Assembly (NCBI GenBank): GCA_950295325.1
Contig: OX485806.1
Location: 1,488,001 to 1,552,000 of the forward strand
Reading direction: 5' to 3'
DNA from: Polytrichum commune
Lineage: Eukaryota > Streptophyta > Polytrichopsida > Polytrichales > Polytrichaceae
Length of the DNA stretch: 64,000 nt
Below the pieces are notes generated by a model. The model was not told the DNA's origin and made no database searches. It saw only the letters and a program-made list of their open reading frames with translations. Positions 3,292 through 46,845 of this stretch are shown here, piece by piece; the stretch's first letter is position 1, and each line of letters starts with the position of its first letter. A program made the translations under genes and the position numbers.

Positions 3292-5230
3292 GGGTAGAGC
3301 ATAGTGCTTGGTTATCCATTCTATTTGAAGGTCTTCAAGACATTAATGGTATTTCCATTATGTTTGTATTTCAAACCCGTTGAATAGATTCAATTTCCAA
3401 TCATTCTCCACATCTTCTTTTCCATTAGCAATAATTTGTCATTTTATACACATATGTTTTCATGTATGGTTCATTTTTTTGTTCACTTTGATGCATTTAT
3501 GTTGATGATTATATCCAATGTTATACATATGGTATTTTAATGTTGTTAACATTGGCTCAAATTTGAAAACCACATCCTTGAATAGTCTCAAAATCATCAA
3601 AAAGTCTCCGATTACCGAATATAGTGTTTGTTGTTCTTTTTACAAAAGGCCATAGGTCATTTGACTCTTTTGTACACTTTCTATAAGTCCTTCATTAATA
3701 ATATAGCTTCTAGATTCTTGGGACGGAGGACTTTAGCTTGCACACAATCTGCTCTACTCCAAGTAAAAATAGGTCTCTCGGGTATGTTGCGTAATAGTAT
3801 ATTCACAACCCCAGACAAAATGTCCAAAGGAAGAGATGAATAAAAACCAACCATAAACTTGGACATACAATCTCTTATCAATTTCATACTTGAACAACGT
3901 ATAGTCACAACACCACAATGAATCTTCTCAAAAAAATTTCACGTCAAACTCCCTAAATCCCTTTGCTCACTCTCCAAAATTTGATAGACCATATGTTTCA
4001 CCTCAAAAACCACCAGGAACTTTTTGGAAGTAGTAGACCATGTTCTAATTATAAGATATGCTGAGGAATCATTCTCTCTTACCTCCTTCACAATTGTTGT
4101 ATTTTGATGAGGTTGTGTAACTTTGTTTTATGGGGATGTCCAACTACCTCTTACTTTACTACCTCCCAATTTGTTTTGTGTGGTCTGATCTACCTTGGAT
4201 TTTGAGGATAGTCCATTCCCACCATTAGAAAGGTTAGAATTCTTGCAGAAAATTGGTGACCCAATATTTGTTGTTGTTGCTGCAACATTCCCCAACATAA
4301 TCATAACATCCTGCTAAAATGACATTGGAAAAATGTCTTTAGTCTATATGTCAGTATCCTAGATCCAAAGTGCTATTATATGTAATTTTGTCCTCAGCCT
4401 TTATCCCGAATATATGTGCTCATAACCTAGCTCAAAGCACCAGTCAATTGACCAACTCAAGTTTTAAACACATTCGCATTAGCTCGAACTGAGAGAGCAT
4501 GATTGCAATGCTAAAATTTAACGTATCTTATTATATGACTTGATGTTGATGTTTTGCTATACGACAAACTATAATGCTTAGTAATTACTGCAATTGCATA
4601 ACTTTATTTTACTCACTTGACAACAAAAATGAACAAATACTTTATGTTCCAATTCCATCAGTCTTTGTGATGGACTTTGCTACTTGCGAATACCAAACAT
4701 GTTTTCTAAATAAGGACTTTATTATCACAAATCAACAAGCTCAGGACCTCAGATATCTCTGGTTTCTCAAGATGTATTCTTAGAATCTATAGCAGTTTCC
4801 CATTAACTCCGAAAGTCATATTCAATTCCATCAGTCTTTGTGATGGTATTTGTTATTCGTGAGTAGCATACATCTCTCAAGGAATTTCTGAGTACCATAC
4901 ATCTCTTGGTAGCATACATCCATACATCCACATTCAATAGTTCATAAGAATTCGACTGTAGCATACACCCACATTCAATAGTTAACACAAGTGAGAAGAC
5001 CTATGTATTCAGTTCACAAATCAATAAACATGCACTGTCAATAACCATCATTGAATCAGAGAAGGTCCCATTTTCAATTACTAGGTGTAAGCTCACAATT
5101 GACCACCTCATTCTATTACACATTTGCATTCTAAGTCAATTGCACTTGAGCTAAAAAAATAATTTTTTCTTCAGTCAGTATTTAAGAAAATTATTTATCC
5201 TGGCACAAAGGTTATAAAGTTACTCTACAA
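3292..5230. other. AT-rich non-coding stretch with small duplications
   Basis: No supported gene. The 23-bp stretch beginning ATTCCATCAGTCTTTG occurs near 4651 and again near 4827. The phrase CACATTCAATAGTT occurs near 4929 and 4971. Short frames here have no recognisable features. Confidence 0.55.
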
Positions 5231-9663: not shown

Positions 9664-10840
9664 CAATTACTGCCTACAAGTGTTTTTCATTCATCCAACA
9701 AGAAGCCTTGAAATAATCAACAAGCCTCAATCTTCTATTTTTAGTCATGTAGACACTGGATTTAGATTCAAAGGCCCCAAATTAGTCTAGTCAAAATTAT
9801 TTGAGATGAATCTGCCAAAAATCTATAAGGGACAACTTTTTATGTTGGATGGAGGAGAGGTGTCTTAATTTCTACAATTTTACATTAGAAGATAAATGCC
9901 GGCTTACATATAAAGTGCTTAAAAACCCTCCAATTACATGTAATGTTCAATGAGTTAATGGCTAAGGTGTTGGATTAGGGTGGTGAAGTCTAAAGTTCAA
10001 ATGCTTTCGCTAACACCCCTAAGTTTAATCTTGTACGTGGAAAGGGCCTACCTAAAGGTTAGACCAAGTTCATGGGATGTGTATGATTGTTCATTTTTTG
10101 AAATTTCCCTTTCAAAAAACTCCCAAGTAGCATATTCCCATCATCCATACAAAATATCCCATCTACACAACTTCCCATGTCCAACTGAACATTCCCATTA
10201 ATAATCAAGGGACATGAGCAAAATTCCCACTCATTCCACATTCCCTTCCAAGCCTTATGAACCATGGGACATGAAAGGAAATTTTGGAAATTTTTCCCAT
10301 TGGGACACAAGTGAAAGTTCCATGTGGCAGATGCTAAAACACAAGTCTTCCAATTCGTAGATGTTGAGAGAACATGGGAAAATGAAATGAACCAAGATTC
10401 TTACATTAGTGTATTAATTTTTACATTAGCATACTAATGAAATGAACCAAGATTCTTACATTAGTTTACAAATTTTGAGTGAGTGGGGGGGACCCCTTGG
10501 CCTCATTAAACCTGCACCCAACATGTGACAACTACCACATGTCCTCTTAGCATATACTAAACCTCATCCGTAGGCACACCTTAGTGTACAATTTCCACTA
10601 ACCTTAGTGTACATGTCAATGTCCACTAGTTTTAATTATGTTTTGAATTTATTTTCAAATCTTGTCTTTAACACTATATTCGTTAAATTGAGACTTTTTG
10701 GGCATTTTGAGACATTCATAGAAATAAGAACAAGGATAAATGGAACACATATTGGTGAAAGTTGTAAGATGCGAACACTTTGAAGCGGGTGTTTAGACCA
10801 AGAACCCCATTAATAACTCATATTTGTGATGGTTTAGGGT
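9662..10840. other. AT-rich non-coding stretch
   Basis: No supported gene. Multiple copies of TTCCCA/GGGACAT phrases between 10080 and 10320 match those at 9190-9310, consistent with a degraded dispersed element. The phrase AACCAAGATTCTTACATTAG is duplicated near 10390 and 10445. Confidence 0.45.
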
Positions 10841-10876
10841 GGGCAATCGAAACCTTAGACCAAATTGAAGGGGACA

Positions 10877-11130
10877 TCTTAAAACATTCATATTAATGCA
10901 CACAAAATATGAGAGCTTGTATGAATATGGTTTAGGTAGGGCAATCCAAACCATAGATCTTATTGAAGGGAAAATCTTAAAACATTCATATTAATGCACA
11001 CAAAATATGAGAGCTTGTATGAATATGGTTTAGGTAGGGCAATCCAAACCATAGATCTTATTGAAGGGGAAATCTTAAAACATTCATATTAATGCACACA
11101 ATAAGGCACTCCAAACCTTAGACCATATGG
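10877..11130. repeat. 98-bp tandem repeat, about 2.5 copies
   Basis: Units beginning AAAACATTCATATTAATGCA start at 10881, 10979 and 11077, giving a 98-bp period. The first two copies are almost identical and the third is truncated. A diverged partial copy precedes them from about 10840. Confidence 0.9.
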
Positions 11131-11279
11131 AAGGGGAAATCATGTCTAACTTATATTATTGCAAAAAAAAACATACAAAGTGTGGCATGTAAAATGCATA
11201 TCATGCTAACACCACACATCCATTGGATAGTGCGACCCAAAATGTTCTTGCCTATGGCCCAAAACCCTACGCCTACTAT

Positions 11280-12085
11280 GGCCTATCTAGCCTCGGATAC
11301 TACCTCTTTTTCTTTTGCTTCATTTTCTTTTGTTTTTTTTTTCTTTTGCCTCTTTTTCTTTTGCTGCAGCTTCTTTTGCTCGCATTGCTTCAACATTCCT
11401 GAAAATCTCCGCCCCACGACTATAGCCATTCTTGGGGTGACCGCCATCCATAACACATTTTGGAGTCCGTCGGCCGCCCGAAATATACGTCGAAGAATTC
11501 GAATACGATGAAGTGGATTGTCTCGCATTTCTGGTCATGGCGTACATACGCTCGAACTCGATGGACGCACTAGACCGCATAGGTTTACGGGTGGGAGCAA
11601 CCTGCAACGCGTCAATGCAAGACCACATGTGTTAGTTTAGGGAGGAAGACCCAAACGTGTCACACGTTCATTTTTAAAGTGCAAAATGATTGTAATGCGC
11701 GGTTAACCAGGTTTGGGGGGGGGGGGTTCACCTTGTCACCGGGGGCATTCCCGTCGGAGTCGGCGAGGAGGGGCAATGCGTCCCGCAAAGGAATAGGAAG
11801 GGTTCCACTCTTCGTTGGCCGAGCGTCCATCCGCAGCCGCCGTTGAGGTGTACTACTGCCGCCGGGCGGAGAGGGGGATGTCCGGACGCATTTGCGATTT
11901 ATGCCCTTGAGCGGCGACGGGGACGGAGAATGCCGGAAGATTTGCTTGGGTGGGGGGCTATCGACGACGCCGGCGTCAAGAGGCTCCTTGGAGTAGTCAA
12001 TGGTCGACGCGGCGTCGTAGACGGTCTCGTAGAAGAAGCTCCCCAAGTCCGACTCGCTGACGATGTCAATCGAGGGCTCCAAACG
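11280..12085 (-). CDS. 3' exons of HAD/FCP1-like phosphatase module, function unknown
   Basis: Two minus-strand exons. 12085-11732 follows a pyrimidine-rich GCGCCAG acceptor and ends at AAG with a GTGAAC donor. It encodes a disordered stretch rich in Ser and Pro (HSPSPSPLKG, TSPSPPGGSSTPQRR). 11601 to about 11280 follows a GCGTTGCAG acceptor and encodes VAPTRKPMRSSAS..., then NGYSRGAEIFRNVEA and a Lys/Glu-rich tail (AKEKEAKEKKNK). The second exon matches the exon at 2902-3291 in start, phase and the GYS.G.EIF motif, so both loci derive from one gene family. Whether these exons join to the phosphatase exon 160 bp upstream, which ends in TGA, or form a separate gene is not settled. The 3' end is uncertain because the Lys/Glu-rich tract is low-complexity. 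Confidence 0.5.
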
Positions 12086-12195
12086 CTGGCGCAAAAAAAG
12101 AAACGAAACAAAACCCAAGGGAGGAGGGTTTGCTAGAGCGCGTGAAAATCAAGATACATATGAAGCATATATTACACAAAATGAACGGGCGCGTG

Positions 12196-12239
12196 CGCAC
12201 ACACACACACACACACATACATACACATACAAACACACG
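12196..12239. repeat. (AC)n-rich microsatellite
   Basis: CACACA run interrupted by CATACATACACATACA, lying between the phosphatase exon and the downstream exons. Confidence 0.9.
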
Positions 12240-12246
12240 TAGTGTC

Positions 12247-13050
12247 TCAAATGAGCTTGTTAAATTTCGCGTGAGATAACAACTCTCTGTACAAATGGTC
12301 TCGTGGATCCAAATATCTCTCGCCTATCGGATTGTTCCTAACAAAATTGTTTACGGGCAGTCCGCTTCCGCAGAGCGCCTGGAGGTATTTACCAAGGTCT
12401 AACAAAAATCGGTCCCGGACCTTCTCGACCGTCCAGGTAGGGCAAACTATGAGGTTGGCCGTCGGGTTCAACATGTTCTTTGCGGCGCTGTCGTCCACCA
12501 TGAGCGTGTTCTCGCGGGTGGGACGGACGTCGTAGGGGACGCCTATCAAGGACGGTCGCTGGTCCCAAAAAATGTGCTTCAAGACCTTGAGGTATTGGGG
12601 GGAAGCGGGGTTGTTTGGTTTTTTGACGACTTTGCCGTCCGGTGTGTACAATATTCTACAGGCTTCCTGTGCTAGGACCATGCACGGGGGCTCGATGCCC
12701 TTGAAGATGAACTCCACGACGGCATTGGTGTTCTCGGCCGTCATGGAGCTCCAAACGACCACCCACCATCGTTGTTGGGCCATTTGGAGGAAGGTCCGAA
12801 GCCACGGGCGGAGGTGAACTAGCTTGCTCTTTATGAACGTGGGCGGGCCGTCGTAATTCGCGTCCTCGGGCTTGCAAAAGGGCACCATGGGGGTCCTCGG
12901 GCAATGAACGCATTGGACGAGGACCCCGTTCAGGTCTAACACCAGGAATCGTTTCTTCGGCCGCGGGGGCGGGGCGGGGCGGGTAAAATCGGGGGCGCCG
13001 CCGCGCTGCCCTCTCTGCTCCTTGGAGAAGAGCGTCGGGGAGCCGCTACG
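12247..13050 (-). CDS. HAD/FCP1-like (NLI-interacting factor type) phosphatase domain exon
   Basis: Members of this family remove phosphate from protein serines, such as those of the RNA polymerase II C-terminal domain. Visible HAD motifs are motif I FLVLDLNGVLV, motif II VVVWSSMT, motif III lysine in YLKVLKHIF and motif IV TLMVDDSAAK. The second acidic residue of motif I is Asn (DLN rather than DLD); plant proteins with DLNG at this place are known to me, so this may be lineage-typical. The frame is open upstream to a TAG at 13051-13053, and motif I comes before the first ATG, so a 5' exon not identified here must supply the start. The segment before motif I is Pro/Arg/Gly-rich. The exon ends in TGA. 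GC content is high compared with surrounding DNA. A truncated copy lies at 2492. Confidence 0.7.
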   Translation of the reverse strand, partial: RSGSPTLFSKEQRGQRGGAPDFTRPAPPPRPKKRFLVLDLNGVLVQCVHCPRTPMVPFCKPEDANYDGPPTFIKSKLVHLRPWLRTFLQMAQQRWWVVVWSSMTAENTNAVVEFIFKGIEPPCMVLAQEACRILYTPDGKVVKKPNNPASPQYLKVLKHIFWDQRPSLIGVPYDVRPTRENTLMVDDSAAKNMLNPTANLIVCPTWTVEKVRDRFLLDLGKYLQALCGSGLPVNNFVRNNPIGERYLDPRDHLYRELLSHAKFNKLI

Positions 13051-13537
13051 CTATGCTCCGAGCCCTGCGGATACGATCGAGAGAAAACGGTGGGCGACTT
13101 ATGTCATGCTATGTCCAAACGAAGCATTTAAAGAAACGAGTGTTCTCGGTGCAAACACAAAACCATTTGATTCATTTTGGAGGGGGTGCAACAAGGGACA
13201 CAAGAGAGGCAAGAGCATACAACATACATTCAAACACAGGATACGAGTATATAGGAGTAAAAACTGGTGATTATATTGTATACAATGCTCTATGTACATC
13301 TTGATTGGGGGGAGCCGCGTTGAACGATGCGTTCAAACTAGCCTACTTCTACATCTAGCAAAAATTGAAGAGACGGGCCGCCGTGATGAAGACTTCGTCG
13401 CAAGCCGGGGGGTATGTGGACGAACGAATGGTCGGGGGGAAGTGGCGAAGGGCGCGAGTGCCGGGGGGGCGACGTGTCCGTGAGTTTAGGGTAGTTAGGG
13501 GACACGACCAAGGCAAGAAGACAAAGACCCATGGAGT
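13051..13537. other. Spacer between phosphatase and ParB-like genes
   Basis: Contains the unseen 5' part of the phosphatase gene or its promoter and the 3' flank of the ParB-like gene. I see no reliable coding frame; overlapping frames on both strands are shadows of GC-rich sequence. Confidence 0.4.
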
Positions 13538-13559
13538 TTGGGTCGACCGACCCAAACTG
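13538..13559. repeat. Family B palindrome, centre AC
   Basis: Arms TTTGGGTCG and CGACCCAAA around AC. It lies just past the TGA of the ParB-like gene, or in a last intron if the GAG/GTAATG site just before that stop is used as a donor. Confidence 0.9.
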
Positions 13560-13566
13560 AGTGGGG

Positions 13567-16500
13567 TCAGTGCATTACCTCGCCTTGGTCGTGCCTCGAC
13601 GACGTGGATGCCGGCATCGCGTGCGTTGCCCCACCTCTGTCACCGCCGCCTCCGACGACGACGTCAGCCGCAACCTGCTCCTGCAAAGGCTGACTGTCAG
13701 GCCTTTGTCCCAACCCAACCTCCGCATGCGCATCATGCATTGGTTCATCGACTGGGTTAGGAGTAGAGGTATCACTAGGCCCTTGCGGGCCTTCAACGTC
13801 TAACATGGGCTCGTCCACCGGGGTCTGGTCGGGGACGGGGTTTGGGTCGGCCGACCCAAACCCTGCTGGTTGGCGAGCGTCGCTCTGGGACGCTGCAGCG
13901 TCGGCACTGTTTGGGTCGGACGACCCAAACATGTGGGGGTCGTCCCGCTGGTGGTGTGGGGGCAAGAGGATGGGAGGCCGGAGCGGCGGGGGTGCCAACG
14001 GGCTGGAAGCTCCGGGGACGCGCCAAAGGTTGGGGTCGTCCACCTGCTGGACAGGTGCGTAAGGGCGGGCGTGCGGCTGCAGCAAATGCGCGAAGCTGAA
14101 GGACTGTTGCGGCGCCGGCCGCGGGCGGATATCCTGTGGAGGGAAGCCTGTGGGCAAGTGAGGGAATGAACTCGGGGGAGCCATCACCAATCCTTGCGCC
14201 AGCATGCCCTGGATCACTTGCGTGATCAGGTCCTCTTGGGACGGAGGTGGGGCCATCGCCCTTTGCCGCTCCTGCTCCAACAGGAGAGCCCTCAACTCCG
14301 CGACTTCGTTGCGGACCGAGGGCTCCTCGGCGGCGGCCTTCTGCAATCGGACGCGTTGCTCCTCGTCCCGGAGCATCTTCGCGTTGGCCTCCTCCACGGT
14401 GAGGACCTCGGGTTTCACCCTCACCATCCCGGCGAACGCTGTGGGGGAGGCAGGATCCGACCTCAGCCTCTTCGCGAGCTCCATGTCGTCCTCGTCCTCG
14501 GAGCTTATGGCGATCGTCTCCTCCACCGCATAGTCGCTGTATAATTTCTTCCCCTTCAGCATTCGCCGCTCCCTGAAGGTGGCCGTCGCGTCCCTCGAAT
14601 ACATGTCCTTCGCGTCGGCCACCGTTAGGACGGGTACTAGCTTGCTCTGGGGCGTTGCAGCCCGCATGGCCTTCTTCCGCTGAGGGGCCTCGGATTCTTG
14701 AGTGAATCCTGTTGCCCCTTCCTCCACCTCCCCCTCCACTTTCTCTGCTTCCTCCTCCTCCTCCGCAACCTCGCCACCTGCTCTCATAGAGGGATTGCCC
14801 GGATGCAACCCGATGAGCGGCTCTGGCAATTGAACGGGGGCTCGCATGGCGAATTCACCCGGGTTGATTCGCCTCGCCATATCCAAAGGATTCTCGCCCC
14901 CCTCGACGATCTCTTCGACGTAGGATCCGGGTATCCAGTCGAGGATGTCCATTCTCTTGGCCAGCGCCTTCTGGGTCCTGTAGAATTGAACATCGGCATC
15001 CTCCACATAGGAGTAGATGTTCAACCCAGACATCTGCACAATCAGAATCAATACTATTAGTATCACCAATGAACAAATAATGGAAAGTGACATCCAAAAC
15101 AAAATAAGAATAGTTAGTTTGGGTCGCTCGACCCAAACTATGGGCATACCTAGTTTGGGTCGAGCGATCCAAACCATGCATGCCCTAGTTTGGGTCGCTC
15201 GACCCAAACAGACCGTGCCCCTAGTTTGGGTCGAGCGACCCAAACAATGCATGCCCTAGTTTGGGTCGCTCGACCCAAACCGTCCATGTAGTTCCTTCAG
15301 GTTATTTGCTTACCATGGTTGCGAAAACCGGTTTGGAGCCCCCAAAGACGTTGAAGATGCAGTCCCCTCTCTTCGTGAGGGTCCTCATCATCCGCAGGTA
15401 GAACTCCATGCGCAGCTCATCCGCGGGGTAGTTGGCGTACTTCGCCTCGTCGTACAAGCTCCTGCTGGTGCCCAACCCTTCTTGGACTTGGAAGAGCTTC
15501 TCCATCCTGGCTATGGGATGGTTTGGCACCTTAAGCAGCTCAGCTTTGTACACAAAGTACAAGCACAGCACGTTGACGATCTTCGTCTTCTTGTCTTTCA
15601 GCGTGCTGTACGCCCCCTCCGCCGGTGCAGCAACGTAGTGAGATTTTGAGACGGCGTACTCTGGCTGCAATTTCCGCACGATCTCGTACACCTGCTCTGC
15701 CCTCCTGTCCTCGACAATCCACAGCCAGACGTCGACCTCCCTGAATTTGGGGCTGCCGTAAACCACAAACTTCGTGAAGAACGGCTCGTAGAATGGGGTG
15801 CTCATTGTCCCCTCGAATGAGGCTCCAGGGATGTTCCTGAAGTCTATCATTCCGAAGGGGAAGCGGTCCTCGGCTTTTGTCCTGATAGCCTTCCTGGCAT
15901 CAGAGCCCGGCCATCCTTGGATCTTGAGAGGCTCGAGGGTGACCAAGTTGAAGTAGGCGTCGCCCTCGAAGCTGACGATCTTCTTCTCCTTTATAAAGTT
16001 GGAGAAGGCACGCGCGGAGTGTTCGGGAAGCGCTCGGTTCCTCCCCCCCTTCACAAGCTTGGACTTCAGGAAGTCGTCTCCCGCCTCCCTGATGAGTGCC
16101 GCCATTGACACACTGGTGAACTTGTAGTCGGCTTTGAATGCCCTCCAGTGCGCCTCGTCGACCTCTCCATCCACTATGAGCTTTCTTTCCGGCACCAGCT
16201 TGTGCAGCTCCTAGACGATGGTCGTCTACTTTTTCCTATTCTCCATCCATTCCTTCATGGTGTAGCATGAAGGGACGAAGATTTTGGGCTTGATGAAGAT
16301 GATCTTCGGGTGGACCCAACATCTCTTTGCCGTCGGCTGCACGTGAAGGATGTGGGACGCCGCCTTTCCCATCTCTGTCTCCGAGAGACCTTGAAGAGCC
16401 CTGAAGAACTCCCTCACCAGAGGCTTCATCTGCTTGAAGCGCGCAGTCTGATTGAAGAGCATGCCGGTGTCGGGATCCATGAGGTCCCCCGTCTCGTGTT

Positions 16501-18390
16501 TCTCGAAAACACTCTTCCATCTCCCCCACACGGAGTCAGACGCTGTGATCAAATAAATTTCTCCTCTTAGCTCGTTGTACTTCTTCTGCTTGTGGGAAGC
16601 GTTGTCAATCGAGGAGAATTTGTTGATCATCTGGTATTTGAAGTCCTGCACATGAAGTAAATAACACACGTGAAAAAACTGCGAATGCAAGAGTTTGGGT
16701 TGATCGACCCAAACTATAAACCTCACGAGAAAAAGTAAGCAATGTTACAGTTTGGGTCGATCGACCCAAACTACAAACACGACGAGAAAAAATAAACAAT
16801 GTTATAGTTTGGGTCGATCGACCCAAACTATAAACCTGAAGAGAAAAAGTAAGCAATGTTACAGTTTGGGTCGATCGATCCAAACTATAAACCTGAAGAG
16901 AAAAAGTAAGCAATGTTACAGTTTGGGTCGATCGACCCAAACTATAAACCTGAATAAAAAAAGTAAACAATTCAAGAGTTTGGGTCGATCGACCTAAACT
17001 ATAAACCTGAATAAAAAAGGTAAACAATTCAAGAGTTTGGGTCGATCGACCCAAACATACTCACCTCCCATTTTGGGTTCTTGTCTTTAGCATTCTCCCT
17101 TTCCTTGGGAGGCCTGCCGTAAAACTCCCACACCTCCCTCGAGGCCATGATGTTCCGAATCCAGGATGCCTGGTACGCCCTCTTCTTGTTTCCCATGTTG
17201 AAGAAGCGTGAGATGTCGGTTAGTACGGTCTCGTTGTCAGACCAAACCACCAATGCCTTCCACACCTTTAGCTTCTCCTTTTGGTTGTTGGGGTCGTCCC
17301 ACTCGGTCATCAGCTGAATTTTTTTAGACGCCTCCACACTGTGCTGGCCATCAATCAGCCAGAAGTCGCCTTTGCATATTGTCGGCCACATTTCAGGCGT
17401 CGGCATTCTCTTCAGCCCTTGCGCCATGACAACAATCGTCTGCCTGTCGTCTTTGAATTGCCCTCCCAAGATCTGAGCGACCATCCAGTCGACGTAGGCG
17501 TCCTCCTTGGCTCGGACACACTTCTCAGGTGGCGCAAGGTGGCACTGTGCAATGTTCACCTCGAACTTGAAGTCCCTGCCCATGAAGAAGCAATGCAGGC
17601 ACTTCGTCTCGAAGTTATCATTGATTTTCTGTATCTCGCCTGCATCCACCTCTTGGCCAGGTTTTGGCATCCGCAGCTCCGGGGAAACTGGCTCGGTGGT
17701 CATGACGGAGGACTCTCTCGCCCTCTTCGACGGGGTCGTCTGCCGGCTTCCGGACGGTGTGGGCGTCTCGCTGTCAGCCAGCATTCCTATAGTGCTAGGC
17801 CGTCTGGAGTCTGCAGGGACCGGACACGGTATCCTCACAGTTTGGGGTCTGGACGACCCTGCGCCTTCTTCCGCCGTTGCCTTACGCCTCACAGGCTTCT
17901 GCGTTTTGGCTTTACTTTGCAGCGCCTTGTTGAGGACCGTGATGGCATGTTTCAATTTTGTAAACCTACTTGCAACCTTCGTGTTGGTTACATTGCCATC
18001 TATGAAAATTGTCTCCGGTTTAATTGTTTCAGGCTCCACGCATGACTCCTTGGCGTATATAGTGTCGAATGACTCGGAGAACTAGTGCATGAACATGTGG
18101 GCGTTGTGCACGGCGGAGTTCTCGAGAATTACGTCCACGTAATCCCCGAGGGCTTGGACGGACGCAACCTCCCATCCTGTCAACGTTGTCCAAGTGTGGT
18201 TCTCGTGGGTCCCTACTTTTACCACGAATAGGAGCTTGAACTGGGAGCCCTTTACAACCTGAACTGACCACGCAAGGACAAGCCCATCCTTGGGCACGTA
18301 TGAGTCGTCCTGGGGGGTTTCATACTCCTGCCATATTACGTCTGGCGCGAGCATAAAGAACCTTTCTCCAGGTCTCTTCTTGGGGGCCAT
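13567..18390 (-). CDS. ParB-like domain protein with methyltransferase-like segment (three exons, in-frame TAGs)
   Basis: Exons on the minus strand: 18390-17065, 16645-15314, 15033-13567. All junctions are phase 0 with good GT-AG sites (GAG/GTGAGT, TTCATGTGCAG, ATG/GTAAGC, TTGTGCAG). ATG at 18388-18390; about 1374 residues. Residues about 285-410 resemble a ParB/sulfiredoxin-type fold: WMVAQILGGQF, DFWLIDGQHSVEASKK, then VVWSDNETV and FFNMGNKKR. The end of exon 2 with the start of exon 3 (GDCIFNVFGGSKPVF, then NIYSYVEDAD) resembles motif I of N6/N4 DNA methyltransferases, but the usual DxFxGSGT is altered and no DPPY motif is visible, so catalysis is doubtful. Exon 3 adds an acidic stretch (TIAISSEDEDD, SUMO-interaction-like), a coiled-coil segment and a Pro-rich tail. 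TAG codons lie in frame at 18082-18084, 16226-16228 and 16211-16213; no TAA or TGA interrupts. Bacteria and phages have ParB-methylase fusions; kinship is inference. Confidence 0.5.
13838..13929. repeat. Two family B palindromes inside a coding exon
   Basis: Palindromes near 13839 (centre GC) and 13909 (centre GA) lie within the third exon of the ParB-like gene. Read on the minus strand they encode FGSADPN and FGSSDPN within a Pro/Ala-rich tail and keep the frame open. They are the only palindrome copies of this family within unambiguous coding sequence here. Confidence 0.85.
15034..15313 (-). repeat. Second intron of the ParB-like gene with five family B palindromes
   Basis: Intron of 280 bp bounded by GTAAGC and TTGTGCAG. 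Palindromes begin near 15118, 15153, 15190, 15226 and 15258. Their centres read CT, AG, CT, AG, CT on the plus strand, which means the same unit in alternating orientation. They are separated by about 15 bp. The intron also has a T-rich part near the 3' splice site. Confidence 0.85.
16646..17064 (-). repeat. First intron of the ParB-like gene made of a 57-bp tandem repeat
   Basis: Intron of 419 bp bounded by GTGAGT and CATGTGCAG. It holds seven copies of a 57-bp unit starting near 16693, 16750, 16807, 16864, 16921, 16978 and 17036. Each unit has a family B palindrome with centre AT (arms TTTGGGTCG and CGACCCAAA, a perfect 20-bp palindrome) followed by about 35 bp of nearly identical linker. 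A few copies carry single mismatches in an arm. All frames in it are repeat-derived (LGRSTQT). Confidence 0.9.
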
Positions 18391-18417
18391 CTGTAAGTCC
18401 AGAAATTAAAACTATTA

Positions 18418-19065
18418 GTTTCGGTCGATCGACCCAAAGTAGTCGACAATGCATTTAACATTTGGTGGAAATGGAACAAATGTATTTTATTGACCAGCCC
18501 GAATTCAAGGTTTGGGTCGATCGACCGAAACCTTGAACACTTGGTGGCTCGTATTCTTGAAATGTGGAGGCTAGAGTGTTTGGGTCGAGCGACCCAAACA
18601 TTTCATTAATTTTAAAGCTGATTTCTAGTGTTTCAGTAGATTTGAAATTGGGGTTTGGGTCGATCGACCCAAACATGAGGCTCTGTGGTTTGGGTCGCTC
18701 GACCCAAACATTTTATTAATTCTCAATCTGGTTTCAAGTTTTTTTTTAATTGAGGTTTGGGTCGAGCGACCCAAACATGAGGCTCTGTGGTTTGGGTCGC
18801 TCGACCCAAACATTTTATTAATTCTTAATATGGTTTCAAGGGGTTTTTTATATTTTGAATTGGGGTTTAGGTCGAACGACCCAAACATTGCAGCCTCATG
18901 TTTGGGTCGCTCGACCCAAACATGAGCCTTTGGGGTTTGGGTCGAGCGACCCAAACATGAGGCTGCAATGTTTGGGTCGATCGACCCAAACATTTAATCA
19001 ATTTTCAAGCTGATTTTAAATGTTTCGTTACATTTTAAATTGGGGTTTGGGTCGCCTCCCGAAAC
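18418..19065. repeat. Family B palindrome cluster upstream of the ParB-like gene
   Basis: About twelve copies begin within 30 bp of the ATG at 18390 and extend 650 bp upstream. Centres vary (AT, AG, CT, AA). Linkers of two kinds, one with ATTAATTTTAAAGCTGATTT-like sequence and one with TGAGGCTCTGTGG, alternate. The outermost copy near 19041 keeps only one arm. The position suggests 5' UTR or promoter. No TATA box is clear within the cluster. Confidence 0.9.
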
Positions 19066-19185
19066 TACTTAGTTTCCAGAGGCATGTTTAATGTTTAAAC
19101 ATCATATACAATGCATTGTATATGAAACATGATCGTAAAGGAAGTGAAGCAAATTGTGTAGAGTGAAATGATATACCTTGTGTTT

Positions 19186-19296
19186 GAAACTCTTGTAAGC
19201 TGCTCTTACAAGCTGATTCTTATAACCAGAATCCAGAAACTCTTGTGAGCTGCTCTTACAAGCTGATTCTTAGATCCAGAATCCAGAAACTCTGTG
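19186..19296. repeat. 50-bp tandem repeat with internal hairpin
   Basis: Units starting GAAACTCTTGT begin at 19186, 19236 and (partial) 19286. Each contains CTTGTAAG and CTTACAAG separated by a few bases, a small inverted repeat. Confidence 0.85.
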
Positions 19297-20100
19297 ATAT
19301 CACTAAAAATCAACACTCAGAAACACCTAAAAATCACTATGAATCTCACAAGCACTCTAAAACCCTCTCACAAACACCCTGATTCTTGCAAGCCTTCTGA
19401 TCACTACTAATAACAACCTGAAATCACTCCACAACAACAACAAAACTCTGATGTCACTCACTGCATCCACTCTACAATAAGAAATGAATGACACTCAACT
19501 AAAGCGATCCGGACTCACTCAATGCGTGCACGCTGAACCAGGAAGAGAGAATAAGCCTATAATCCTAGAAGAAGACTCGAAGGACCAGAGAGGAGAAGAA
19601 GAATGCAAAGGAAGAAGTGAAGACAAAGACAAAGAGGAAAGCGGCGCTTCGCGGGAAGCGGCGCGTCCAAGCAATACCCAATGAGCGCAAGAAGCTATGC
19701 GAAAAGACAAACTCACAATCGCTTGGCGCGTCGCTATGGAAAGCGGCGGCGCTTCGCGCGGAGGGAGAGGAAAGCGAGAAAGAGAGAAAGAGAGAAAGAG
19801 GAGGGGAGAGAAGGGGAGAGCCGAAGGGGTTCCCCTTCAGACAATCCTGGCCATGCGATTTCTCGGGCCCATCAACGGCCCAGAAGCCTCGCGGGCCAAA
19901 ACCCTGCCAGGTGTCCAAACCTCCTTGGTGGAGGTGGTTGCCCGCGCGGCTTCTGGTGTTGACACATGGCACCCTATGGACATTGCCTTCGGCATTGTCC
20001 TTGCCTCTAGGGGCGGGACATAGGAGGGTCGGCGCCTCTCTTGGCCGCCCGGCCCCGGCATTCTAACCCGGTATTCATTACCGGCAATTCAAAAACATTC
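19297..20100. other. Non-coding region with purine-rich tract
   Basis: Contains an A/G-rich tract on the plus strand (about 19760-19830, GAGAAAGAGAG type) and a GC-rich block. An inverted repeat CCGGTA/TACCGG lies at about 20070-20086. Overlapping frames on both strands are of low complexity. It may be an old LTR or other element end, but no TG...CA boundary could be fixed. Confidence 0.35.
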
Positions 20101-20604
20101 AAAAAGCTACATAGACTAAGGTGTTGCACAATATTTACACCATCGCCAACTCTGATTTTAATGGTGTTGAATTGAATGATCGCCCATTGGAATTGATAAT
20201 TGATAACATCGTAGCCATTATTTGTTTTGGTATTTCAATAATGTAGTCGTATGGAATCATATGAGAGTGTTACAAAATCTAAGAGGAGTAATTCATAATT
20301 ATATTGCAATCTTCAAAGGCAATTACACGGTGCAATAATATAAATATGGTAACCGTTCACATGGTTAAGGGTATTGGGTTATGTATTCTAATTGCTATGA
20401 TGGTTGTTGGTAGAGGACAAAGCTCTAGACTACAATGGATACCCTAACAAGTAGCATTACAGTGAACATTAACATATGTACTTAGAAGCTCAAATTTGAA
20501 GTACATGGGAGAAACAAAATGATAACAAATGTATCTACTTCAACCCCATGGACTTCACATATCATATGAAGCCATTTAAACATTCAGTTTTTTGTTCGAT
20601 GATG

Positions 20605-20627
20605 CCTAAACCCTAAACCCTAAACAC
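20605..20627. repeat. Interstitial telomere-like repeat (CCCTAAA)
   Basis: Three adjacent CCTAAAC units of the plant telomere type. Two TTTAGGG-oriented tracts follow at about 21333-21355 and 22073-22092, the opposite orientation. Confidence 0.85.
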
Positions 20628-21330
20628 CACAAACCATAAATGAATGGCACACACATCAAATGACAGGGCCTTGGTGCTTGTAGTTCTCAATACAAATGTA
20701 TATTGTCATCATAACATCCTAATTCACGAAAGAATGAACTCACAAATGTCATTTGTGATTTATGGTTCCATTAATGACTTCCACATACGTAGGTTAATGT
20801 CACACTTGCATGCTTGAGGATGGAGCAATGTTGTGTGCACACATTACAAACAACATATGTTCTTTTGATTAGCGCAAATTGAAAGTTGGCCAAAATATTC
20901 AACTTTGTCATGGCATCAATTCCTTGTTTTCAAAATATAAGTCCTCATGTGAGGGTCTAAATAATTGCATTAACTATTATATTTAGTGACTTTTAGTATA
21001 TGAGGTTTTATAATATTGGCACCTCTTTTGTCAATATATTGTTTGAATTATACCACAATGTTTGACTCCAAGTAGAATAAAACCCCTTAGATATAACCTT
21101 ACATATTGTCATAGGGATATTGGTAATTAGTGTATGCATTCATATTTAGTGTATGAAACTCTATATATCCAATTTAGTTTTATCTAGTCAATGAAAGTGT
21201 TGTAGTGTCACTACAATGAATATGATAATTACACTCAATATGATAGTTAGTGTTTGATACACTTAATAAGAACGTTTAAAATAGATGTTGTTTGTATATG
21301 GGGGCATCAGTGAACCACTACTAAATTTTG

Positions 21331-21355
21331 GTGTTTAGGGTTTAGGGTTTAGGGG
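21331..21355. repeat. Interstitial telomere-like repeat (TTTAGGG)
   Basis: GTTTAGGGTTTAGGGTTTAG followed by degenerate GGGGATAGG units. Plant telomere type, opposite orientation to the tract near 20605. Confidence 0.85.
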
Positions 21356-22754
21356 ATAGGGGATAGGGTTATAACATATTAATCTATCCAATGTCAATGT
21401 ATAACATTGTCTTACTCGTGAGAAGAGTCTTATAGGAAGGTTATAGTGAAGACGATATTGTGTTTATTTGAGACGTTTAAACGCGATATATTGATTGGTC
21501 TTGTGTTTATTCAAATAACATGAAATATTGTGGATGTTAATAGGGGCTAGGGGTCCAACTTTGGATGTTTCGCTCAGTTTAGGGAATCACATATTAGTCG
21601 CTAATAAACCATCGTTCATGATGTATTTAATATATGGAATGTGATGTAAAAGTAAATCGGAGAAGCACAACATCATGTTGTTATTCATTGTTCTCTCCAC
21701 GTGTATTAGATAATGGAGGAAGATATAACAGATATTGTTTGCATAATATGAAGAAGAGTCTAATCGGAAGGTCATAGTAAATACAATCTTGATCATGTTA
21801 ATATGTTATATGGGACGTTTAAACATGATATCCTAATTGGTTTTGTATTTAGTCAATGCGTATTTCATGTTGTGGATGTTATAAGGGTTTAGGGTCCAAT
21901 CTTCGATGTTTTGCTCTCACACATTAGTAAACTTGAAGTGAACTTGAGGATGGATTCAAGTAACATTAAAATATTGAACTAAAAAGGGACATTGGTAGTT
22001 AGTATCCCCTTAACAACGTCCACATACGTTCGTCATTGCCACTCTTGCATGCGAGATAATAGAGCAAGGTTCTAGGGTTTAGGGTTTAGGGGAGACAAAT
22101 AAATATTTCTATTCATCATGACAATGGCCTCAAGCCTTGGAAACTCTCTCATAATTGCAGCCTCCAAATGGCCCAAACCCCACCTAAATAGGTTTACACT
22201 TGAAAGCATTGAATGGAGTTGTGTTTGGGTCTACATATTGGTTAAAATATACCTTGATGATACTTGAAAAAATTAATGTGGCCGCCACCCTTCCTCCCAA
22301 CGGCGTATGTCATATCCACACAAGACAAAAAAAAAAGGATTAAATATCATAGACTAAGTCATATGACGGCTGGGGTATGAGAGGGGCATTGATAGATGCG
22401 CATTTTCTACTATAAACAGAAAACGGGGAATTATGTCAGGAGGTTTGAAAAAACCGCTGCAGGAGAACAAGGTGGGAAAGGCATCCAATGAGGAAGTCGG
22501 AGAAACGGAGGTGGATAGTATAAAGGGACGCACCCCCCAAAACTCTGTCATTTTTTGCTCTTCTCCCACTATTGAATTCGTAGAGAGAACTCTTAGTCGG
22601 AGCTATACTTCAAGGTTCGTGCATGCTGCCGTTCATTACCACTTATCCACAGCATGGAAGCCCACCGGGAACTTTGCAATGAGCTCAAAATCATATGGGA
22701 TTTCGGATTATCCGCCGCATTATCCGCCGGATTTTGAGGGTTTTAGTGTGACTC

Positions 22755-23445
22755 TTATCAGGTTTGGGTCGGTCGACCCAAACCCCTCCGCTAGTGTGGG
22801 TGGGTTTCAGCCTGACCCTTACACAGGTTTGGGTCGGTCGACCGAAACCCCTCCACTCGTGTGGGAGGGTTTCAGCCTGACCCTTACACAGGTTTGGGTC
22901 GGTCGACCGAAATCCCTCCACTCGTGTGGGAGGGTTTCAGCCTGACCCTTAACCAGGTTTGGGTCGGTCGACCGAAACCCATCCACTAGTGTGGGTGGGT
23001 TTCAGCCTGACCCTTACCAGGTTTGGGTCGGTCGACCGAAACCCCTCCACTAGTGTGGGAGGGTTTCAACCTGACCCTTACCAGGTTTGGGTCGGTCGAC
23101 CGAAACCCCTCCACTAGTGTGGGCGGGTCTCAGCCTGACCCTTACCAGGTTTGGGTCGGTCGACCGAAACCCCTCCACTAGTGTGGGAGGGTTTCAACTT
23201 GACCCTTACCAGGTTTGGGTCGGTCGACCCAAACCCCTCCACGAGTGTGGGTGGGTTCAGCCTGACCGTGATCAGGTTTGGGTCGGTCGACCCAAACCCC
23301 TCGACCAGTGTGGGCGGGCTTGACCAAAACCCCTCGACCCCTTGACATACAATGTTTGGGTCGACCGACCCAAACCCCAACCCCATCTTGGCCGGCTGGA
23401 GGTTGACCATGAGAAGGTTTGGGTCGGTCGACCCAAACCCCCTCC
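22755..23445. repeat. Tandem array of family B palindromes, period about 64 bp
   Basis: Nine units with centre GT begin near 22761, 22826, 22891, 22956, 23020, 23084, 23148, 23212 and 23275. Each has the palindrome, then CCCTCCACTAGTGTGGG, then a GGGTTTCAGCCTGACCCTTA-like linker. Copies 2-7 or so have the right arm changed from CGACCCAAA to CGACCGAAA. Two more copies outside the strict period lie near 23354 (centre AC) and 23417 (centre GT). The array ends about 190 bp before the ATG of the DUF7869-type gene. Confidence 0.95.
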
Positions 23446-23627
23446 CAAAATGTTTTTTGGAACTTGCGCAAAGTATTGGGAGTTCACATTGTAGTTGTGT
23501 TGCAAATGTCTTTATCCTCGGTGTCCCCATTTATCATGATGTCTTGCATTTTTTGATATTTGATTCTTTTGAACCTTTACATGGTGTGCATGTTTGTTGA
23601 GGTTTCATGTGCATGTGTGTAGGCGAA

Positions 23628-26600
23628 ATGGAGGGAGCTGGTGGAAGAGGGGATGCCTTCTCTGAAGACATGGGCAACTCCCATTCTTCGTCTGGGGATG
23701 ACCTAGACATTGTCGGGGAGGATAGTTTTGGTGATAGTGCAGATGAAGGTCATTTGGGGAGTCCTTCGCCATCTGCCCCTTCTTGCCCCACTGTGGAATG
23801 TGCTGGGCTTTCACAAGCTTCATGGGTGAATTTGGATGTGGTACTTGTTAATGACAGTGGAGTTGCTGTGGCGGAGGGTATTTGTCGTAACACACATCCA
23901 CAAGATTGCATTGATGAAAACCCCCTTGGCACCGAGGACGTTGGAGTTGTTATATTGGAATCACTCGTACATTCCGAAGTGAATCCAACTCATAGGTTCT
24001 CGTTGCGAAGGTGGCCGTTGAGGAATGTGACAATTGATGGGGTTAATTTGCATGAGCATGAGCGACGACACATCCAAATCCAACAGGAGCTCCAAGCAAA
24101 CATTCGGCCATGTAAAGGCCTACGGAAGTACGATACATTGGCACGTCCTACTCCGTCTGCAAATGAGTGTAAACGTCAAAGGTTGCTTTGTGAGGAGTCT
24201 ATTAGAGGAGTTGCCACAAAGGATTGTTGTGTACATCGTTGTTGCCAATTGTTCCCAAGGGATAAATTGAAGGCCATCCGCGAGGAAATGTGGCTTGGAG
24301 ATTTCCGTCTAAGATCCACTAAAAAGCTTGATGTCCATAGGGCGATACATGTGAACGGAGCGGGTCGAAAGGTCATCACCCTTGAGAGCATAGACGTGTG
24401 TTGTATGGCATGGTACACCATTCACGGTGTGTCGAAAGCGGAATTTTATAGACAAGCCGCGTATGCCAAGGAAGGACGCCGGTCCCGTCACCATGGGAAT
24501 ACGGGCTTAAAGAAACCAAGGGAAGCAACGAGACAAGCAACAGCCACTCTGGCAACCATCATTGTCCCCCTTGCCGATGCAATGCCGCACAAAACACGCA
24601 CACTCTCAACCGGTGAAAAGGTTGTGGAGAAGGTTCTTCCTACAGGCACGAAATGGAAAGACATATTGTTGGACGTAAACGCAGTTGGCGAGAAGGCTGG
24701 GTTGGACCCTATTTCGTTGTCGAAACTGAGTGCAATAAAAAAATCTCACTTTAGCGAATACATCACAAAAAGACGAGGCGACAAATTTGCCCGTTGTTCC
24801 AAATGCGAGAAGTTGAAACGCCTTCGAGATGCACACACGATGGGGACAGAGTCCTATGCCGCACATCAAATGAACTATTTCAAGCATGTGAACATGCAAG
24901 AGGCACACCGTAATGATTACTACACAAATAGAGCTTTGTCCATCTCTAGGCCTTTGGAGGTCCTTACAATCATCCATGACAAAATGGACCATGCCAAAAC
25001 AGCCTCACCATGTTTTGCAAATCGAATCAAAGCCACGGACGGCCTTTTTAAGCTTCCTGTATCGGTTACAGGTGATTTCGATAACAATTGCATTGCATTA
25101 CCTAAACACAAATTTGTGCTTTTAGGTTTGTACTTGGGGCCATAGATGTACACCATGTGAATTTTTTGGTGTTATAGTTGAATATTAAACCATTGGGTTG
25201 GCTTTGCAGGGATGATTGCACATGGACACGGTGATGTCAAGTATGCTCATTATGCTCTTGATTTGTATCCGGCGGATTTAAACCACACAATAGGGTCATT
25301 TGCAAAGCTTTTACGTGATTTGGAGAAACCGCCGTCCTATTCATCAAGATTGTTATTTGAAAACTCGGGATCAACACCTCTATATGAAGCGGTCTTGGAT
25401 GGAAGAGATGTATGCGTGCACTCCTTGCCGGAGCCACCAAGTGAAGATGTGATAGCCAAGAATTTGCCCCCAACTCTACGTGTCCAATTGGACAATTGTG
25501 CGAAGGACAATAAAAGTAGATATGTTTTTGCATATTGGTCGTTGTTGGTTGCGAAAGGCATTTTCAAGGAGGTTTTTGTGTCCTTTCTATTGGTAGGTCA
25601 CACGCACGATGATATCGATACATCTTTTGGACGTTGGAGCATGAAGTTGCGCGAGGAGGATTTTCCAACAATCCCATTGTTGATGAAGTCGTACATGGAT
25701 TTGGAGAACATTCCCGTCATCCCCCATATGATCGAGGAGGTTCCCGACTTCAAGGCATTTATAGAACCGTATATTCGAAGCGGAGCTCACCGATTGATCG
25801 GACATACGAAGGCACAACAATTTCGGTTCTACGTGCGTGACGATGGTGTCCCCGCCATGCAATACAAGTTGTTGTGCACGTCACAAGACTGGAGCCCGCC
25901 GGAGGGTCTCCTTGTATGGCGTGTTGATGGGGAGGGAAGGACGATGTTGCCTGACGGAGAGCCTAAGCCTTGCAAACCAATACCCATGAAGAATTTGGAG
26001 GACATTTGTAAAGGCATATCAGGCTTCATACAATATTGGGAGAGTTTGAGGGTAGCGGATGTTGGTGGATCGTGTTGGCTTCGTTACGGAAGTTGGATAC
26101 AATATTGGACACGTGTTCGTGGCGCTTTGGCAAACCTTCATCAAGATACACCCCTTACTTTAAGGCATGGGTTTTAGCCACAAACACGTGTCAACGTACA
26201 AGTTTCGGAGGCTAGTCTTTTGGGAAATGGAGAGGTTCGAGAGGAGTTTGATGTGGACGACCATTACGTGGGACCTGCTAGTAGTCGTCCGCCACCATCT
26301 TTCCGCATTGCAGTGGATTGTCATGAAGGTTATATGCTCATTTTGCGTCCTGGAGATGAGACATATGCAAAGCCAGTGTGGGTGGCAAGAGCTTTGTCCA
26401 AACCAAATTTTGTAACTTCCAGCCCTCATTTTCGACAAATACAAGTAGAGTACTACCGACCGACAGCACGGAATGAAGATGTTGTTCGGCATTATACAGG
26501 CTGGGATACAAACCCTAACTTTCGGTGGAAGGTGGATTCTGAGCACGGTCCATCTTGGGTAGATACAGATTCCATATTCATAGCATGGAAACCACGGAAA

Positions 26601-26696
26601 AATCATAGTGGATCAGTGTCCATCCCTCAAAAGTACATAACTTTTGCAAAAGACAACCTTGCTCGGATCGCAGAAGAAGCAATCCACGTTGAATGA
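23628..26696 (+). CDS. DUF7869-type transposase-like protein (one intron, one in-frame TAG)
   Basis: Start chosen at ATG 23628 (MEGAGGRGD); an upstream in-frame ATG at 23607 exists. Exon 1 ends at 25125 and exon 2 starts at 25210. The 84-bp intron has AG/GTTTGT and TTTGCAG borders, phase 1. Residues about 1-120 are acidic and disordered. A CSKCEKL pair lies near residue 395. The core has IIHDKMDH (about 449), QLDNCAKDNKSRYV (about 591) and VGHTHDDID (about 628), the acidic signatures of DUF7869 proteins, which I take to be RNase H-like transposase relatives. A TAG at 26175-26177 ends the frame, but the same frame continues to a TGA at 26694-26696 with well-formed sequence (FRIAVDCHEGYMLILRPGD, GPSWVDTDSIFIAWKPRK). 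The protein is about 820 residues with the stop, or about 994 without it. Mobile origin is likely; activity is unknown. Confidence 0.7.
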
Positions 26697-26699
26697 GAA

Positions 26700-27234
26700 G
26701 TTGGTAGGATTGTGTTAGCATGATTATAGTGTAATATGTAATTCGACGAATATATATTACTCATATGTGTGCTCCTCAAACTTGGGGCAAAGTTTGGGTA
26801 GAACTTGCGAATGCTATATTGTTTGGGGTTGGATGAATATCCATTTACTATATTTCAATATAGTTGTGAAGTTCATTTTTTTATTAAGTTTGGGACTAAA
26901 TTTTCCATTGAAGAAAAATGCATTTATTGCATGTACTTTGTATGTTGCAATGTCTATATTTTATTAACCATGCTAATAATAGAAATCATTTTATATGTTT
27001 CTTGGGTGAAACTAGTTTGGAGTGCTCTACCCAAAGTGTTTTTGTTGATGAAGTTGGTGTTCAGTGCTCTACCATATGTGCTTATGTCCACACCCCATAG
27101 ATTTGGGATATTAGAACATATAATATATTTGAGATTGTTCGCAATATAGTTTCGGAACACGGAATGTTGTTTGATCCATATATTAATTTGAGACTAGAGA
27201 AAGTCTCAATTTAACGAATATAGTGTTCTTTGTA
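26700..27234. other. AT-rich spacer
   Basis: 3' flank of the DUF7869-type gene and 5' flank or intron of the next gene. No coding frame supported; a TTCTTTGTAG acceptor-like site ends it. Confidence 0.5.
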
Positions 27235-46052: not shown

Positions 46053-46845
46053 GGTATTACAGCTCTGTCAACAACATGTGCAGTCCATTTGGTCCTCTTG
46101 TAGTGACCATTTGGTCCTCTGGAGGATATCCCTTTATAACGAACATTCTGGCTCAGCGTAGATGCAAGCAATGGTTTCCTGATTGCAGACAGACATTGCA
46201 TGGTATCTACCTTAGATTGCTAGAAAAGTTGGCATGGAATTAAAATTATACGATTCTTCAGACGAGCTCCAATACTATAGCCAATAAAGGACATTCTTTC
46301 CAAGCGAGGAGTTCTGCTCGGTCATGAGCAATTACCTTTTGGGGAAAAAATGAGTTGAAACGATGACTAGAAGTGGCACAAATATCCACACAGAAGCTGG
46401 GGCTTGCTTGGCTGTCTGCATGATCAGATGAATGAAGAGGAGGCTCTGCTTGGCGGCAAAAGCTAAAACAGCTGTGATCGGGAAGATGTTCCTTAACACT
46501 GGCACAAGCATTAAACACATGTAACAGGCCGCAGTACAATTGCAATTAATGCTTAAGGAAATGCGGCGCTAACGAACAAACCTGCTACGATCCCTCATAC
46601 ACAAATTTGAAAACTTGTCAAGTTCAACATTGATGTCTTGAAAATCAAGCAGCTCGAAAATCTCTATGGTGGAGGGTGTCATTGTTTCACGCCGTGTTGA
46701 AGTAGTGATGATTACTTGTGTTCATCTATATGAGTCACCATGCAACATGTGTCATCTATATGAGCAAGACGCCGCAAAGCAGGGCTTGTTTACGCTGACT
46801 GGCAACATCGTCATTAGGCTGCAGACCTCATTGCCCCATTGAGAT
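46053..46845. other. Upstream region of the AAA ATPase gene
   Basis: About 0.8 kb between the 3' end of the membrane-protein gene and the ATPase start, both on the minus strand. The promoter is probably here. No coding frame is convincing; a phrase CATGTGTCATCTATATGAG repeats with variation near 46723 and 46747. Confidence 0.45.

Follow-up and report, generated by a model that had tools for sequence, protein, structure and literature searches.

What reads the dense arrays of palindromes that surround one gene of Polytrichum commune? The question is raised by a 64,000-nucleotide stretch of contig OX485806.1 (assembly GCA_950295325.1, positions 1,488,001 to 1,552,000), hereafter the window, whose coordinates are counted from its first letter. 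Within it lies gene A (13567-18390, minus strand), which was singled out by an initial annotation as the most interesting candidate gene; its tie to the palindromes is upheld here, whereas it had gone unnoticed that gene A appears to be the accessory gene of a transposon and that this copy is disabled. The explanation favoured in the present work, at a probability of roughly 0.55, is that the product of gene A, an element-encoded relative of ParB-methyltransferase proteins, binds the element's own palindromes, most likely resisting silencing.

Gene A and the palindrome arrays are enclosed in a complete DNA transposon of 16,558 bp (10670-27227; clade I), missed by the initial annotation, the borders of which were placed where alignment similarity to two further copies, A and B, ends. 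The palindrome of this element, P1 (GTTTGGGTCG-NN-CGACCCAAAC, a 10-NN-10 palindrome; as a 22-bp search unit, GTTTGGGTCGATCGACCCAAAC), was matched 37 times in the window at three or fewer mismatches to the 22-bp palindrome, the mean in 100 dinucleotide-preserving shuffles being 0.00. The annotation's count of more than 25 copies of a 20-bp palindrome in and around the gene was reproduced, as 26 of the 37 sites lie at 13536-18991 (shuffles 0), none of them in exons 1 or 2. Across the 408-Mb genome the exact P1 pattern occurs 9231 times and its backward control 0 times. A tie between the palindromes and copies of the gene was likewise supported: of the first 100 exact sites in the genome listing, 99 belong to five clusters, all on contig C1, each with a ParB-like gene inside it or no more than 1.6 kb away, and P1 clusters elsewhere reproduce the internal spacing of the window arrays.

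Recognition is argued for most directly by a second complete and homologous transposon, element E (C4:1470430-1486540; clade II), situated 12,130 bp from the window's element, with related inverted repeats and three genes that match in identity, order, and strand. Element E contains no P1 site; it carries 30 sites of a different palindrome, P4 (TTACGAACG-NN-CGTTCGTAA; 3737 exact occurrences in the genome, control 0), and these occupy the same kinds of place as P1 does in the window's element, namely upstream of gene A (nine), in intron 1 (two), in intron 2 (two), in or near exon 3 (seven), and upstream of gene B (ten). The pairing of clade and palindrome was strict in the sample, which comprised nine copies per clade selected manually, rather than randomly, along the rankings, 12 chosen for unusual DGQH codons, and the long elements fetched. 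P1 alone was found in 19 of 20 clade-I copies, the other being a degraded copy without arrays (L051), and P4 alone in all 15 clade-II copies; four further palindromes (P2, P3, P5, and P6) occurred in none of these 35 copies. Some array-bearing copies hold just two or three sites (L046, L047, and L053). A third clade of gene A, sought through the unusual DGQH codons, did not emerge, all 12 places fetched belonging to clade I or II.

The two clades have not diverged evenly. Between them, identity reaches 80% for the DUF7869 core of gene B and 64-65% for the whole of gene B, compared with 43% for the NIF-like gene, 35-37% for gene A, and 43-45% for the ParB-like segment of gene A. The conserved pair is therefore the transposase candidate with the inverted repeats, and the variable pair is gene A (or the NIF-like gene) with the palindromes. 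It is because gene A diverges with the palindromes while the DUF7869 core and the terminal repeats stay similar that gene A is proposed as their reader, and the swap between clades speaks for recognition far more strongly than mere co-location does. A chance origin of the palindromes is ruled out by the zero shuffle mean and by the genome pattern controls, all of which were 0. The notion that the palindrome is itself a mobile insert is disfavoured by the matched positions of different sequences in the two clades.

The features of the window's element are given below by window position and strand.

10666..10669, unstranded: left target-site duplication, CTTT (other copies: ATAA in copy B, ACTA in element E)
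10670..27227, unstranded: transposon, clade I, defined by similarity borders, perfect 28-bp inverted repeats, and target duplication CTTT
10670..10697, plus: left terminal inverted repeat, 28 bp, 100% match to the right end in reverse complement
12247..13050, minus: open frame of a NIF-type (haloacid dehalogenase, HAD) phosphatase-like gene, Pfam NIF E = 7e-15
13536..13930, unstranded: three P1 sites, two in the coding sequence of exon 3 and one just after the stop codon
15033-13567, minus: gene A exon 3, 488 codons and stop; last part of the methyltransferase-like region, followed by a proline-rich tail with two palindromes
15117..15280, unstranded: five P1 sites in intron 2, at 35-36-bp spacing
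16645-15314, minus: gene A exon 2, 444 codons; methyltransferase-like region whose motifs are altered; two in-frame stops
16693..17056, unstranded: seven P1 sites in intron 1, at 57-bp spacing
18390-17065, minus: gene A exon 1, 442 codons; ParB-like segment at about 17068-17697; one in-frame stop
18418..18991, unstranded: 11 P1 sites upstream of the gene A start (scan at three or fewer mismatches)
22762..23438, unstranded: 11 P1 sites upstream of gene B, outside the stretch covered by the initial annotation
23601..26696, plus: gene B, DUF7869 protein (open frames 23601-25145, 25182-26177, and 26178-26696)
27200..27227, minus: right terminal inverted repeat, pairing with the left end
27228..27231, unstranded: right target-site duplication, repeating the left CTTT

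The target duplication measures 4 bp in all three copies with both ends (the window's element, copy B, and element E), a length typical of the Sola superfamily. Gene B, the second frame of which matches Pfam DUF7869 at E = 5.7e-41, is likely to be the transposase of the element and lies on the strand opposite to gene A; no paper joining DUF7869 with a transposon turned up in the literature search, which covered open-licence papers. The NIF-like gene is also present in L002, L003, and L010, and in the clade-II copy L020. At minimum, hundreds of copies are present: rough genome candidates numbered 953 for the clade-I ParB-like segment (the 150 scored being 90-100% identical), 950 for that of clade II (150 scored, 92-100%), and 1336 for DUF7869 (150 scored, 96-100%), and a DNA pattern for the DGQH motif gave 495 matches with a control of 0.

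Conservation within the arrays provides an indication of what is being read. Among 423 exact P1 left half-sites, taken on both strands from 16 sources, each position of the right half was conserved at 0.91-1.00, as against 0.61-0.62 for the two central bases and 0.29-0.44 for the flanks. For P4 (181 half-sites, 11 sources), the right half was conserved at 0.83-1.00 with the centre free, two further outer positions reaching 0.80 and 0.65. Since only the dyad is conserved in P1 and P4, the centre and flanks being freer, the pattern resembles that expected of a site read by a symmetric dimer. For P2, P3, and P5, repetition extends into the flanks, and conservation is therefore indistinguishable from tandem copying.

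Gene A itself was confirmed as a three-exon gene of about 1374 codons, with GT/AG splice borders and phase 0 throughout. The window's copy is disabled by three premature in-frame stops; in another copy, L002, exons 1 and 2 are open. Comparison of coding sequences shows purifying selection on the gene, within-clade nonsynonymous divergence (dN) being 0.03-0.09 and synonymous divergence (dS) 1.0-4.1 in the four of six within-clade pairs for which it was computable, with dS saturated or undefined for several pairs. The exon 3 palindromes (window 13840-13930; L020:3355 and 3731) are translated as FGSxDPN in clade I and as other peptides in clade II.

The protein motifs quoted in the initial annotation are present in the translation of gene A, and its two domain proposals held in part. 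For the ParB-type segment there is a weak alignment: in a comparison with a profile of 12 phage and bacterial ParB-type segments (one row of which, L064, may not start with the ParB part), DGQHS fell opposite the ParB motif at E = 0.0095 and a probability of 4%, above 60 of 60 column shuffles, the NIF and DUF7869 controls giving E = 0.092 and 0.56. Family membership is not supported, as ParB_N (PF02195) matched neither gene A nor the sister gene described below up to E = 10; genome-wide, the model found four places, all on the small contigs C10, C12, and C23 and none on gene A. The methyltransferase-like segment with an altered motif I fared better for the sister gene than for gene A. Against a C-terminal methyltransferase profile of three proteins (four of seven having been dropped for want of motif I by pattern, and the L010 row removed), the sister gene scored E = 1.3e-6 with a probability of 91% and gene A E = 0.0044 with motif I in register, both above 60 of 60 shuffles, and phage DNA methyltransferases were among the matches of the sister exon (PHROG 5e-5; best tblastn 1e-3). 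Motif I of gene A reads NVFGGSK or NVCGGSK, and the [DNS]PP[YFW] catalytic motif occurs neither in exon 2 of gene A from L002 and L020, one from each clade, nor in the one sister frame tested. Searches of PDB sequences gave nothing credible, structure models yielded no reliable fold, with a mean predicted local distance difference test (pLDDT) score of 33.4 for the ParB-like segment (single-sequence model) and 33.7 for the methyltransferase-like segment, and relatives of gene A were found neither in the prokaryote genomes nor in the viral contigs searched. Given the weak profile scores and the absent DPPY-type motif, gene A is named ParB-like and methyltransferase-like and is filed in neither family, the ParB assignment being weak by sequence.

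According to the proposed mechanism, gene A would be the accessory gene of a large DNA transposon, and its product a ParB-like and methyltransferase-like fusion from which the usual catalytic signature has gone and which is probably non-catalytic. The protein, probably as a dimer, would bind the 10-NN-10 palindromes of the element, which stand in both promoters (gene A and gene B) and, within gene A, also in the introns and at the 3' end. The density of the arrays would ensure strong avidity and label non-coding DNA as belonging to the element. By coating this regulatory DNA, the gene A product may keep off silencing; most likely, the genes of the element would be released from silencing by the host or else activated directly, in the way VANC proteins act on VANDAL elements. 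With divergence of the protein, one palindrome would have given way to another across the whole element.

A different multicopy element (C1:2152001-2169500) extends the comparison. It possesses the sister gene, a ParB-like gene with DGNHR (L007:8265-9029) followed by a methyltransferase-like region in open frames (L008); its other open frames look transposase-like, with a SWIM match that is sub-threshold only (E = 0.076), and only its right end was located. Within the 17.5 kb examined there was no DUF7869 or NIF match, which leaves the ParB/methyltransferase-like gene as the apparent common factor of the two elements. Besides P1, the second element carries P2 (CCTGTGCGT-TA-ACGCACAGG), the respective P1/P2 counts being 18/20 in L007, 13/8 in L040, 22/4 in L041, and 17/12 in L005 and L006 together. 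Relatives at 55-70% identity (L015-L017) have P2 only, at three to four sites each, and those at 43-44% (L011-L014) have neither P1 nor P2 and bear 11-14 sites of a further dyad, P3. Two versions of P3 exist, both of them symmetric (GGGTTCGG-NN-CCGAACCC and GGTTTCGG-NN-CCGAAACC). In this family too, therefore, the palindrome changes with the protein. The lack of palindromes in L018 and L019, which do not reach into the region upstream of the sister gene, is no evidence. The sister gene had no relatives in viral contigs, and phages gave seven records at E 0.8 or worse. P1 in the second element signifies either theft of the code of clade I or the reading of P1 by a factor other than gene A.

L005 and L006 (C1:461001-479500) contain two more dyad arrays, GTGTCTCGG-NN-CCGAGACAC at about 138-bp spacing and AGGCCTCGG-NN-CCGAGGCCT.

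Were the palindromes sites for a host transcription factor used as enhancers, gene A having some other role, the arrays would be well placed upstream of genes and in introns, and the occurrence of P1 in two element types that differ in their ParB-like genes would be accounted for. A host factor, however, gives no reason for a clade-bound replacement, and two unrelated sequences swap at corresponding places by gene A clade with 0 exceptions in 34 array-bearing copies, which renders this explanation unlikely. The presumed transposase, gene B, might alternatively use the palindromes as accessory sites, like the subterminal repeats of other DNA transposons, and to this may be credited the array that precedes gene B and the weak P1-like copies near the left end of the element (10930, 11028, and 11635, at four or fewer mismatches). 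Yet the palindromes are unrelated between clades in which the gene B core and the end sequences remain similar, most sites are internal, and the second element has P1 and no DUF7869 match; such a role is judged improbable. It is slightly more doubtful again that the arrays propagate themselves by slippage or gene conversion with no dedicated binding protein: many units are in tandem at constant spacing and the flanks of P2, P3, and P5 are repeated too, but the dyad alone is conserved in P1 and P4, positions are matched between clades, and the two forms of P3 are each symmetric. Very little credence is given to gene A as an active adenine or cytosine-N4 methyltransferase marking the element at its palindromes. 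The resemblance of the sister gene's motif I region to phage DNA methyltransferases speaks for activity, and modification of the element's own DNA has been suggested by the authors of the Ectocarpus study discussed below (PMC12477816); against it stand the absence of [DNS]PP[YFW] in both clades and in the sister frame, and the altered residues of motif I.

The binding of the palindromes by the gene A product has its own points to answer. The pairing rests on two clades and may reflect a single replacement; the NIF-like protein co-diverges nearly as much as gene A; and P1 is shared with an element that has a ParB-like gene very distant from gene A, the profile comparison of the two ParB-like parts giving E = 0.03-0.04 and a probability under 2%. 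The ParB-like part is named by none of Pfam, PHROGs, and NCBIfam, and the sister gene met the ParB profile at E = 0.22, a score matched by 13 of 60 shuffles. The methyltransferase match of gene A is only eight-fold better than the DUF7869 control (0.036; NIF control 0.13), and no DNA-binding helix-turn-helix family was reported for gene A in general library searches.

Bacterial ParB proteins bind palindromic parS sites and carry a GERR motif. The gene A element likewise combines a ParB-like segment with palindromic sites, whereas the GERR of ParB reads DGQHS in gene A; a parS-like role was set aside, as nothing points to chromosome partition. As in the bacterial and phage ParB-methyltransferase fusions, represented by L054, the ParB-like segment of gene A comes first and a methyltransferase-like motif I region lies near the C-terminus, but L054 has a ParB_N match, DPPY, and FAGSG, all three of which gene A lacks. 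In the alga Ectocarpus, a large DNA transposon has been described whose ParB-like and N4/N6-methyltransferase gene runs in the opposite direction to the transposase (PMC12477816). Gene A, in a DNA transposon and opposite the presumed transposase, is of the same arrangement; unlike gene A with its altered catalytic signature, the Ectocarpus methyltransferase is predicted to act, and the part of that report drawn on here mentions no palindrome arrays (PMC12477816). ParB-methyltransferase accessory genes of algal transposons, as a kind of gene, are already in print. Palindrome arrays rewritten as the protein diverges were the subject of no report found in the search of open-licence papers.

For the question of how transposons attain high copy numbers in the face of silencing, VANC offers a worked example of a transposon protein that co-evolves with a short-motif array in its own DNA. 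VANC motifs are located upstream of VANA21 and within introns of both VANC21 and VANB21; they vary from one related element to another, and an unrelated element, AT9TSD1, likewise contains the VANC6 motif (PMC5735166). The Arabidopsis system and the gene A element are alike in having a protein encoded by the transposable element, short motif arrays in its introns and promoters, and a motif that changes with the protein; non-coding arrays of this behaviour were found in the clade-I and clade-II elements, and VANC6 in AT9TSD1 parallels P1 in the second element. They are unlike in that VANC motifs are short and in the same orientation, and those of the gene A element are palindromes of 20-22 bp. 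Gene A would thus work like VANC, without any claim that it is a VANC.

Should gene A prove to bind P1 and its counterpart in clade II to bind P4, an unrelated protein would have arrived at the same logic. The two clades would then constitute a natural swap experiment, with two proteins, two palindromes, and corresponding places for the arrays, and code theft could be tested on the second element; the ParB-methyltransferase genes of algal transposons would gain a concrete target, and pairs of sequence-specific DNA-binding proteins and sites would be obtained. A bolder generalisation is offered tentatively, with the balance of judgement tilted against it: prokaryote-derived ParB-methyltransferase relatives might serve as a recognition code of eukaryotic transposons, in which each lineage pairs a catalytically dead protein with its own dyad in promoters and introns, lineages escape each other or the host by rewriting the code, and unrelated transposons copy the code of others, as P1 in the second element could exemplify. 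This would amount to a second anti-silencing system of the VANC kind, of independent evolutionary origin, resting on a DNA-binding scaffold from prokaryotes and occurring in more than one transposon class.

Some minor observations complete the description of the locus and its relatives. The DUF7869 core shows a dS of 0.106 between the window and copy B (L003 and L004, C1:2112001-2130000), as against 4.1 for the ParB-like segment between copy B and L002, a near relative of the window's copy; from these values, the halves of the transposon seem to differ in age, so that modules may be exchanged between subfamilies. The observed/expected CpG ratio is 0.62-0.95 in the four 4-kb blocks that fall wholly or largely inside the element and 0.32-0.74 in the other blocks from 4001 on, which fits weaker methylation decay but also a recent insertion, and is given no weight. 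At the start of the window, a P4 array and the end of a related element, which includes part of a NIF-like gene, occupy 1-900, 2410, and 3603-3628, apparently a partial clade-II-type element beside the complete element E; the initial annotation had missed the owner of the palindrome family at 1-900, which belongs to such related elements.

Three of the small contigs encode ParB-type proteins of a bacterial kind (L054, C12:28801-30600; L055, C23; L056, C10), of which L054 and L056 are ParB-methyltransferase fusions of bacterial type, serving here as yardsticks, and one is apparently interrupted by a long insert. A search of a genome-contig collection found no relative of L054. All three contigs are probably bacterial contamination of the assembly. 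Elsewhere in the window, a long open frame of 697 aa on the minus strand (43974-46067) encodes what we presume, from its motif, to be an AAA-type ATPase.

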